Below the pieces are notes generated by a model. The model was not told the DNA's origin and did no database searches. It worked only from the letters and a program-made list of their open reading frames with translations. From Butyrivibrio sp. MC2013 (GTDB lineage: Bacteria > Bacillota > Clostridia > Lachnospirales > Lachnospiraceae): a stretch of 64,000 nt of DNA. The stretch's first letter is position 1. Each line of letters opens with the position of its first letter. Below are positions 9,893 through 51,343 of this stretch, in pieces. The position numbers were made by a program, and so were the translations under genes. The DNA lies in assembly GCF_000424585.1 (NCBI RefSeq), contig NZ_AUKE01000006.1:124001-188000 (forward strand), read 5' to 3'.

Positions 9893-10068
9893 AGGTGTCA
9901 AAAGTTCCTTTTGACACCTTATGACTAACGGATTGTTCCGTTTCTTCGAAACTCTCACAATCCTAAAACATTCGCAATTCCGCACTACGTGCTACTTTGC
10001 TCATGTTTTGCGGGTCATAAATTCATATTCGATTTCGAGCAAGCTCGAATCGAAATGACTTTTGACCC
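9893..10068. repeat. Row of four hairpins downstream of engB
   Basis: Four consecutive inverted repeats fill this gap. H1 9893-9919: AGGTGTCAAAAG with CTTTTGACACCT, 3-nt loop. H2 9930-9963: GGATTGT with ACAATCC, with an inner GTTTC/GAAAC. H3 9969-10005: CAT, GCAA and GCAC paired with GTGC, TTGC and ATG. H4 10012-10068: GGGTCA with TGACCC around TTCGAGC/GCTCGAA. No coding potential is credible. It could be a structured 3' UTR of the engB operon, a small RNA, or an inserted intergenic repeat. Confidence 0.6.
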
Positions 10069-10078
10069 TTACGTCATT

Positions 10079-48761: not shown

Positions 48762-49718
48762 TCAGCCTTTGGCTTCAGGCTCTTCCTGCATCCTGGTCTT
48801 CTTTCTCTGAAGAGAATTGAGATCCATTTCAAACTGCCTTCTTTTACCCAGTGCTATATTCTCCAGCACCAGACCGTTAAAAAAAGCCTGTACAGCTGAC
48901 AGCATGGTGAAGCCGCATACCATCAGAGTAGGAAATCTGTTAACCATTCCGGTCTCCCAGTAATCTATAAAAACAGGAATGATAAATATAATCGCTAGAG
49001 CCGCCAAAGCCACAGCCAGGATGGTAAAGCACTGCAGCGGCCTGTAATCCCTATACAGCCTGAAAATGGTACGAAGCACCTTGAAACCATCGGAAAAGGT
49101 ATTGAGCTTGGAAGTGGATCCTTCAGGTCTGTCCCTATACTGCACCACCACATTCTCGATCTGCATATTATTGGATACCGCATGAATGGTCATCTCGGTC
49201 TCGATCTCAAAGCCCTTGGACAGAACAGGAAAGGTCTTGACGAATTCATAACTGAATGCCCTAAAGCCTGTCATGATATCATTGACATTGCAATGAAACA
49301 TAGCATTGATGGCTTTTCTGGTCATGGAATTGCCAAAGTTATGAAAGGGTCTCTTATTCTCCGTAAAATAGGTGGATGAAAGTCTGTCTCCCACTACCAT
49401 ATCAGCATTATGGCTTAACACCCTCTCTACCATCTCAGGAGCAGAACTCATGGGATAAGTATCATCTCCGTCCACCATCACATAGCAGGCAGCATCTATC
49501 TCGCGGAACATCCTGCGGATAACATTGCCCTTGCCCTGCATGTATTCGTTGCGAACTATGGCTCCCTCTGCCTCTGCTATCTCAGCCGTACGGTCAGATG
49601 AATTATTGTTATATACATATATGACCGCCTCAGGCAGTGCCTCCCTGGCCAGTCTGATAACACTGGCAATAGTCTTCTCTTCGTTATAGCAGGGTATCAG
49701 CACCGCTATCTTGTCCAT
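48762..49718 (-). CDS. GT2 dolichol/polyprenyl-phosphate mannosyltransferase-like protein
   Basis: 318 residues. GT-A motifs: VLIPCYNEEKTI at the start, YVYNNNSSDRTAE, and DGDDTYP for metal binding. Two membrane segments lie near 225-290 (FTILAVALAALAIIFIIPVFI, LMVCGFTMLSAVQAFFNG). It would place a sugar on polyprenyl phosphate. The ATG at 49718 follows AAAGGAAG at eight bases; an in-frame ATG ten codons upstream lacks an RBS. First gene of the GT2 > radical SAM > DUF6044-like run. Confidence 0.87.
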   Translation of the reverse strand: MDKIAVLIPCYNEEKTIASVIRLAREALPEAVIYVYNNNSSDRTAEIAEAEGAIVRNEYMQGKGNVIRRMFREIDAACYVMVDGDDTYPMSSAPEMVERVLSHNADMVVGDRLSSTYFTENKRPFHNFGNSMTRKAINAMFHCNVNDIMTGFRAFSYEFVKTFPVLSKGFEIETEMTIHAVSNNMQIENVVVQYRDRPEGSTSKLNTFSDGFKVLRTIFRLYRDYRPLQCFTILAVALAALAIIFIIPVFIDYWETGMVNRFPTLMVCGFTMLSAVQAFFNGLVLENIALGKRRQFEMDLNSLQRKKTRMQEEPEAKG

Positions 49719-49798
49719 AGACGCTTCCTTTCGCTGTTTTTGGTCCATAAGCCATATTATCTTACCACAATTGTCAACTTTTTCATAGTTTTGATAAA

Positions 49799-50057
49799 GC
49801 TGCTGCAGAAGGTTATTTTCCTCGTTCGCTGCACTACAAATGGTGTTTTACTATTATTCTTCCGCAGCCTTCCTTTCAATACGCCACACTCGAAAGAACT
49901 CACCGGGCTTTCAGCCCGGTTCAAACAGCTTTCTCGTGGGCGTTTTGAAGGCTGCGTATGAAGAATAAGTAAAAATCTCAATTCTTGGACAATGAATCCA
50001 AGAATTGAGACCATTTGTAGTGAATGCTCACTGCGGAAAATAACCTTCTGCAGCAGC
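49799..50057. repeat. 259-bp foldback element with perfect 22-bp outer stem
   Basis: Outer arms 49799-49820 and 50036-50057 are perfect inverted repeats (GCTGCTGCAGAAGGTTATTTTC). Inside, ACTACAAATGGT (49833-49844) pairs with 50010-50021; TTACTATTATTCTTC and CGCAGCCTTC pair with the right arm near 49947-49976; CTTTCAATACGCC pairs with GGCGTTTTGAAGG; the tip is CCGGGC-TTTCA-GCCCGG-like. A side hairpin CTCAATTCTTGGA / TCCAAGAATTGAG lies at 49977-50009. Almost all bases can pair. It could be a non-autonomous mobile element or a structured RNA. Open frames on both strands here are by-products of the palindrome. Confidence 0.8.
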
Positions 50058-50169
50058 GCATCATTTAATCATGGCAACAAAAATACAAAACACTATTTAT
50101 AAATTAGAGTTACGCAAACAGCGCATTTGCAGTTAAGGCCAACAAACAATAACGCAAGAGCCCCTCGGT

Positions 50170-50236: not shown

Positions 50237-51343
50237 ATGAATAAACATATACTAAAGCCCCTCGCCCTGCTTCTAACAGGAGTCCTATTCCTTGGAGGAT
50301 GTGCATCAGATACAGTAGTGACCATATCCAGGGAAGATACATCTGATAGCTCTATATCTGATAAAGGTCAGAATAACGAAGCTCCCAAAGATGGGAACGA
50401 ACAATCTGCAGGTAATGAAGCCAACGCAAACAAGGACAATAATAGTGAGGGCGAGACCCAGACCGGTAGTGATGGCAATCCCGGAGAGTCCACTCCGGAA
50501 GCAGGAGAAGCAGCAAAAAGCGACTTATCAGAAATAGACAAAGATGATCTCCTCATAGTATTTCTAGGTGATGACCAGTTTGCTAATAAATCCGGCGAGG
50601 CCACTTCTGTTGCTGCCTATACCGCGGAGATGACAGGTGCTTATGTCCTAAATCTCTCATCCCCCGCAGCCAGGAGTGCAGAGCTGACAGATCCGGATCC
50701 TGCACTTCCGGGCAGTCTTTTTATCAATATCAGTGAGTATCTATCAGGTGATAAGGATGCATCTATATTTGAAGGGATGCCCGCGCAGGCTGCTGTTGCC
50801 GCTTCAATAGACCCTGCCCTGGTAGACTATTATGTGATCCAATACGGGACTGAAGACTTTATTTCCAATATCCCTCTTAGCGATGAACGAAGCTCATCCA
50901 GGACTGCCTTTCTAAATACCATAGAAAGCGGTATGGCAAATCTTCATAAGGCCAGTCCCGATGCACAGATCCTTGTATGCTCACCTGTTTTTGCTTATTT
51001 CTTTGATGATGACCAAAATGCACTGGGAAGCAGCAACGTCTATTGCAATAATTACGGCAGCCTTAGAGACTATGCCAATAGCGAGGTAGGTGCCACGAGC
51101 AGACTGGGCTATCTGTCAGCCAACTTTGCAGACAGCAGCTATATGGATATCAGCGATCTCACAGCCTCCAAATACCTGGAAGCTGACGGCAGACTCCTGA
51201 CCAGGGCAGGGCGTCAGACCATGGCAGCTGTCATATCTCATATGATCCGTAAAGACATGGGCCTGGAAGGTGCTATAATAGACAAGGATGGACCATTCCT
51301 CATAGAAGACTATATGACAGATGAGGAAAAAGCTCTTAAATAA
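50237..51343 (+). CDS. SGNH-fold lipoprotein with lost catalytic residues
   Basis: 368 residues. Lipobox LGGC (Cys at about 22) is followed by an acidic, Asn-rich linker (to about 95). The folded part aligns with the SGNH lipoprotein at 41074: VFLGDDQFAN for VFIGDSQFD, IQYGTEDF for IEYGWNDY, and DGRLLTRAGRQ for DNVHLSIYGRR. Thus Ser, Asn and His of the SGNH set are replaced (Ser to Asp, Asn to Glu, His to Leu). It is probably not a hydrolase and could bind the same ligand. GGAGG lies ahead of the ATG. It is followed by a DegT aminotransferase gene. Confidence 0.75.
   Translation: MNKHILKPLALLLTGVLFLGGCASDTVVTISREDTSDSSISDKGQNNEAPKDGNEQSAGNEANANKDNNSEGETQTGSDGNPGESTPEAGEAAKSDLSEIDKDDLLIVFLGDDQFANKSGEATSVAAYTAEMTGAYVLNLSSPAARSAELTDPDPALPGSLFINISEYLSGDKDASIFEGMPAQAAVAASIDPALVDYYVIQYGTEDFISNIPLSDERSSSRTAFLNTIESGMANLHKASPDAQILVCSPVFAYFFDDDQNALGSSNVYCNNYGSLRDYANSEVGATSRLGYLSANFADSSYMDISDLTASKYLEADGRLLTRAGRQTMAAVISHMIRKDMGLEGAIIDKDGPFLIEDYMTDEEKALK

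Follow-up and report, generated by a model that had tools for sequence, protein, structure and literature searches.

The palindrome at 49799-50057 of the window (the whole stretch of 64,000 nucleotides of Butyrivibrio sp. MC2013 DNA analysed here) is, with a probability of about 0.78, an old copy of a non-autonomous palindromic DNA transposon of the MITE or foldback type, the core of which is probably a site read in DNA. Related copies are dispersed through the genome and mostly intergenic, carry terminal repeats where better preserved, occur in nested and deleted forms and show compensatory change in their arms, and one of them is bounded by an 8-bp duplication. The motif pattern, its control and the pairing of its flanks show the core to be a structural module conserved across otherwise unrelated hairpins.

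The region forms a single long hairpin with nearly all bases in stems. Compared with dinucleotide shuffles, the RNA fold of 49780-50080 reaches -145.1 kcal/mol on the + strand (z -15.35) and -151.2 kcal/mol on the - strand (z -14.76), in each case with 0 of 100 shuffles as low. The fold of 49799-50057 with DNA parameters reaches -89.3 (z -16.62; 0 of 200 shuffles as low). The sequence-only reading had described a perfect outer stem of 22 bp, a 12-bp inner stem, a GC-rich tip, a 13-bp side hairpin and near-complete pairing. All are found in the sequence and in the folds, the outer stem with 23 perfect pairs (49799-49821 with 50035-50057). The inner stem of this copy is CACTACAAATGGT/ACCATTTGTAGTG and the arms of its tip are ACCGGGCT/AGCCCGGT. 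The parts are as follows:

49763-49798, strand not applicable: left flank, the expected place of the left terminal repeat, which is not convincingly recognisable.
49799-49821, + strand: 5' arm of the outer stem, 23 bp, from the fold; helix 1, which covaries in other copies (both-side change in 10 of 22 pairs).
49832-49871, + strand: 5' arm of the middle stem (CACTACAAATGG...GCAGCCTT), from the fold; helix 3 (both-side change in 7 of 27 pairs).
49892-49901, + strand: 5' side of the core, with GAAAG as its stem and AACTC as its loop (the loop is AAACTC in other copies and species).
49902-49920, + strand: GC-rich tip hairpin, from the fold; variable, with other hairpins in its place in other copies.
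49921-49933, + strand: 3' side of the core, loop TCAAACA, one base, then stem CTTTC.
49947-49956, + strand: 3' arm of the middle stem, inner portion (GAAGGCTGCG), from the fold.
49977-50009, + strand: optional side hairpin (13 bp, 49977-49989 with 49997-50009), found in 8 of 31 core-bearing copies.
50011-50022, + strand: 3' arm of the middle stem, outer portion (CCATTTGTAGTG), from the fold.
50035-50057, + strand: 3' arm of the outer stem, 23 bp, exact reverse complement of 49799-49821.
50058-50093, strand not applicable: right flank, the expected place of the right terminal repeat, resembling the flank of other copies only weakly.

This copy lies between divergent genes, a family-2 glycosyltransferase gene (48762-49748, - strand) and a gene at 50237-51343 (+ strand) that has a GDSL-lipase match below the Pfam cut-off. 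Its neighbours in the window include glycosyltransferase and aminotransferase genes. The element was first read as having no coding sense, and the two short ORFs overlapping 49799-50057 indeed match nothing in Pfam at E<=0.001. Over the feature, every Rfam family stays below its gathering score. The matches at E<=10 are all sub-threshold and mostly to eukaryotic microRNA or snoRNA models. Elsewhere in the window, a Clostridiales-1 RNA (RF01699) is found at 9922-10076 on the - strand with 110.7 bits.

A blastn search of the element against its own genome (3.81 Mb, 48 contigs) gave at least 86 matches grouped as at least about 40 places, with 40 of the 67 candidates scored, so that the copy number may be higher. 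The sequence is therefore not unique. A fuzzy search for the core identified 31 core-bearing copies in 38 fetched loci, and a covariance model of the inner 157 positions recovered 26 places at E<=0.1, opposite-strand matches at one place being counted once. Of 29 copies, 26 overlap no other ORF of at least 110 amino acids; 20 of the 29 lie between tandem genes, 4 between convergent and 3 between divergent genes, and the context of the remaining 2 could not be assigned. The family thus consists of short, non-coding elements in many dispersed copies, as expected of a MITE.

From the outside inwards, members carry a terminal repeat, the outer stem, an asymmetric loop, the middle stem, the core and a variable tip. 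The terminal repeat AACTGTTCACTCGC starts about 30 nt outside the stem. It is perfect on both sides in the best-preserved copy, L023, and altered elsewhere. Since the better-preserved copies carry these repeats so far outside the stem, the original element was longer than 259 bp. The stem proposed for a 259-bp element therefore stands, its full original size does not, and the 22-bp stem that had been taken for the terminal inverted repeat lies inside the actual one.

The window copy has a GC-rich tip, and some copies carry GGAACTATAGTTCC in theirs. In 9 of 31 copies more than 60 nt separate the two sides of the core, and in 8 of those 9 the tip contains a nested ATGGTCAT..ATGACCAT hairpin or one like it. 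A hairpin element distinct from the main one, about 120 nt long (CAATGGTCAT..ATGACCATTG and variants), is nested in the tips of L024, L027, L028, L030, L031, L036 and L039, and L029 has a 38-nt mini form of the nested hairpin element. At the end of contig C3, copy L026 is truncated by the contig end and its tip contains the start of an ORF that is transposase-like by eye. Deletion forms that retain the outer palindrome are also present (L038, L040 and L043), and L046 is barely more than two terminal repeats. The side hairpin of the window copy, terminator-like on the - strand in a terminator scan, is apparently a separate small palindrome inserted into the element. This palindrome (TTCTTGGAT..ATCCAAGAA) forms a small family of its own that also occurs outside the element: stray examples lie at L216 9998-10022 and L229 12101-12125, in the flanks of L032 and in L035. 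The one beside L032 is followed by a T run and is terminator-like.

L023 is nested inside another copy of the element. An 8-bp direct repeat, TCCGCGTT, lies on both sides of it, immediately outside GTAACTG..CAGTTAC. Many dispersed copies, terminal repeats and this target duplication bear out the foldback or MITE-like nature suggested from the sequence. Both ends could be placed at no more than 5 edits in 20 of 30 copies, some surely by chance and the window copy not among them. A direct repeat of at least 6 bp was found in 1 of these 20, L023 only, compared with 1% for re-paired flanks. The target-site duplications that had been called for are thus found at L023 and are missing from the other 19 copies, which suggests that most copies are old. 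Comparison with other copies likewise detects no right terminal repeat in 50058-50093. The window copy, lacking convincingly recognisable ends, is an old one and does not fit the recent insertion that had been considered for it.

The terminal-repeat pattern alone, allowing up to 2 mismatches, is mildly enriched in the own genome (19 matches against 11 for the reversed pattern), and no autonomous element was found there by this end pattern. The genome contains one IS66-type transposase gene (contig C36, 851-1741); no ends of the hairpin family were found near it. Phages searched with the window element gave no match, and plasmids searched with two hairpins from other species gave one match of 15% for one and none for the other.

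Pairing in the arms is maintained by compensatory change. In an alignment of 11 copies, both sides have changed in 22 of 72 pairs, compared with 8.3 in shuffles, none of 500 shuffles reaching 22. Slid versions of the structure gave both-side change in 1-6 pairs, and the true structure pairs in 94.0% of cells; as it was derived from the same 11-copy alignment, it is favoured over the slid versions. The 11-copy alignments (A2 and A3) comprise copies without the side hairpin or a long nested tip. In L039, the outer stem has a different sequence and is still paired. Copying between arms could be the source of part of this compensatory change.

A very stable fold, covariation and a core loop of conserved sequence would also suit a mobile structured RNA, that is, a folded transcript whose conserved loop binds a protein or is processed. 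However, selection on one RNA strand should favour G.U pairs, and the arm mismatches over 29 own copies comprise 83.5 G.T and 84.5 A.C. The isolated arm mismatches in 75 hairpins of distant groups comprise 16 G.T, 26 A.C and 100 of other kinds. G.T is therefore no commoner than A.C in either data set, an outcome that speaks for a DNA structure rather than for one RNA strand, and the single test available for the large structured RNA once proposed does not support it. Equal counts may be compatible with RNA made from both strands. The copies also lie between tandem, convergent and divergent genes with no strand preference, which argues against an RNA.

The core is a mismatched loop, A(A)ACTC opposite TCARACA, near the hairpin tip. 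A blastn search of 98 other genomes, of which 60 belong to the same genus, found no copy of the element at E<=0.001, with at most 7 candidates scored per genome. A first covariance model (R1) gave matches in two further species of the genus (E 2.4e-5 and 0.0025), both of them giant hairpins with unrelated arms and the same loop. A core model (R2) then matched 8 of 79 genomes of the genus at E<=1: the own genome and G014, G027 (3 loci), G028, G046, G047, G051 and G107. Since R2 was built including the two foreign R1 loci (L052 and L053), their R2 matches arise by construction. The other 5 of the 7 foreign species are not in the R2 alignment, and in these species 7 further giant hairpins were found. 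One of the loci, L078 (E 0.144), was retained on the strength of its fold, a giant hairpin containing both loops. A search of more than 40 genomes uses stricter filters, so that absence elsewhere in the genus is not firm. The search of relatives thus failed by blastn and succeeded with covariance models, which revealed the same core in seven other species of the genus. The outcome named at the start as pointing to a chance or degraded palindrome, a unique sequence whose relatives lack pairing, did not occur.

The nine foreign hairpins measure 494-664 nt, and their flanking ORFs, judged by translation only, differ by locus. Further out in the stem they carry the loop a second time as its reverse complement (TGTYTGA / GAGTT), exact in 8 of 9 and with a mismatch in L052. 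Direct repeats of at least 7 bp occur at 2 of the 9, in a wide search with a control rate of 7.4%. Of these two repeats only that of L080, TGCTTTA, abuts both ends, weak evidence when taken alone. No Rfam family reaches its gathering score over the hairpins of 14 related loci, nor over the window feature. This lack of Rfam matches, the complementary second loop and the mismatch counts fit recognition at the DNA level, and they leave the structured RNA quite unlikely as an account of the element. Most likely, the loop is a DNA site read by shape.

A second family with the same core provides information on the respective roles of ends and core. In G285 (one contig of 4.46 Mb), the core lies within elements of about 235 bp with ends CTCAACTTTCGACTTTCAT. 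Among long copies, the count being restricted to those with both ends, direct repeats of at least 7 bp occur at the ends in 11 of 21, compared with 1.7% in re-paired controls. As in L023, the ends are accompanied by the target-site duplication expected of a MITE. Core-less short forms with the same ends (59-153 bp) show repeats of at least 6 bp in 18 of 25, compared with 4% in the control, and certain sizes recur among them (59 bp five times, 63 bp three times, 66 bp three times and 76 bp six times). Insertion needs nothing more than the ends, or else these forms became shorter after it; the recurring sizes favour the first alternative. At C1:889287-890650, four hairpin cores are arranged in tandem with spacings of 380, 584 and 380 bp.

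Three pairs of G285 ends 1.6-2.3 kb apart were considered as autonomous candidates, and none of their ORFs is a fitting transposase: they encode a flavodoxin-type and an unmatched protein, NifU and an aminotransferase, and an IS110 transposase. The IS110 element was rejected as the source of mobility, being a passenger inserted in one arm of a hairpin copy (L267 199-2126).

It is conceivable that the transposase itself recognises the module as a DNA hairpin, much as integron sites are recognised. Across species the loop is steadier than ends or arms, and by hand tally 31 of 43 cores on C1 of G285 share one orientation relative to the replichore, as might result from a single-strand route, a lean not taken as proof. 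However, the own genome shows no such lean (13 of 25, also by hand tally), and target duplications border the core-less short forms with the same ends. The core is for that reason probably not the insertion signal, and its use by the transposase seems unlikely.

The loop also recurs in distant bacteria. The exact pattern with GAAA/TTTC stems was found at 29 loci in genome contigs, records near the own genome possibly being left out. Most of these are chance-like by fold; three loci of Caenimonas koreensis form strong hairpins. Also convincing are loci in a Desulfuromusa MAG, a Desulfuromonadales MAG, a deltaproteobacterial MAG and Sphingobacterium corticibacterium. The pattern AAACTCGC-N(2-30)-GCTCARACA occurs in 37 of 297 genomes of the phylum of the Desulfuromusa MAG (up to 138 per genome; 5 matches for the reversed pattern) and in 26 of 398 genomes of the phylum of Caenimonas (up to 30 per genome; 1 reversed match). 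Both samples include the seed genome and together give 63 of 695 genomes and 6 reversed matches. The own genome may belong to a further phylum, to judge from the Lachnospiraceae affiliation of the first reading, the Clostridiales-1 RNA in the window and weak protein matches: tblastn of two window proteins against plasmids had best hits of 24.8% (Priestia) and 51.9% (Peribacillus), which point to no particular genus. With one representative site per fetched locus, at least 5 Watson-Crick pairs lie directly beside the loop in 31 of 53 sites, compared with 1.4% for re-paired flanks.

Convergence or composition might account for the shared loop if hairpins with GC-rich tips matched the pattern by chance. 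Chance matches do exist: in viral contigs both the pattern and its reverse are matched (at least 122 and at least 119 matches listed). Moreover, 22 of the 53 sites lack a stem of 5 pairs, which suggests that part of the pattern matches are chance or degraded. Such an origin can hardly be reconciled with the few reversed matches in the two phyla, the frequency of flanking stems or the recovery by the covariance model of the 7 giant hairpins in 5 genomes outside its alignment, and as an explanation of the loop as a whole it is very improbable. Among the viral matches listed, 6 of 122 have a flanking stem, as does 1 of 119 in the reversed control; this scarcity suggests no special link with phages.

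The preferred reading, a MITE-like element with a core read in DNA, may be extended. The arrangement stem - AAACTC - tip - TCARACA - stem could define a superfamily of mobile hairpins across several phyla, conserved as the folded DNA site, hairpin or cruciform, of a widespread putative factor. This extension is tentative, and it includes the supposition that members have no further sequence in common, carry different terminal repeats and measure up to 660 nt.

The following sequence of events would account for these elements. The element would have been moved by a transposase that was supplied in trans, acted on the terminal repeats and made a staggered cut of about 8 bp. In the extruded hairpin or cruciform, the loop would be read in DNA by its shape and a few bases, and such reading would keep the arms paired while their sequence drifts. 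The module might bind a host or replication factor, or aid the persistence of the element. No binding partner of the loop was found. If this is correct, a loop that outlasts arms, ends and species boundaries represents a folded DNA site under selection inside MITEs. It would offer a handle for finding the binding partner and for grouping many unannotated intergenic hairpins, as well as a route to test the tolerance of long palindromes in bacterial chromosomes.

Several known systems share part of these features. According to the sections of a 2024 review drawn on here, prokaryotic MITEs have stable folds, direct repeats and size variation (PMC10969869), and their likeness to the parent element extends along much of the sequence or is confined to the terminal repeats (section 2.2). 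The same source describes Chunjie, a MITE of Geobacter uraniireducens of 178-235 bp with terminal and direct repeats, mostly intergenic and present in tens of copies plus many partial ones (PMC10969869). By that description, the G285 family resembles Chunjie, both reaching about 235 bp, whereas the window element differs from it in sequence and organism. QMITE2 is palindromic with a very stable fold, direct repeats of 7-11 nt and tens of copies, mainly intergenic or in 3' untranslated regions; compared by description with the window element, it has a GTAG palindrome, and the parts of the source used here do not mention the AAACTC/TCARACA loop (PMC5896051). More generally, no description of this loop was recognised in the portions of the literature on hairpin elements and MITEs that were searched. 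REP and REPIN sequences, like the window element, are multi-copy intergenic palindromes, as far as their descriptions used here extend. However, the window element is far longer, occurs in nested form and belongs to a family whose ends show target duplication. Integron attC sites are DNA hairpins recognised by their structure and unpaired bases, with variable arms. By analogy, their recognition offers a model for how the core may work.
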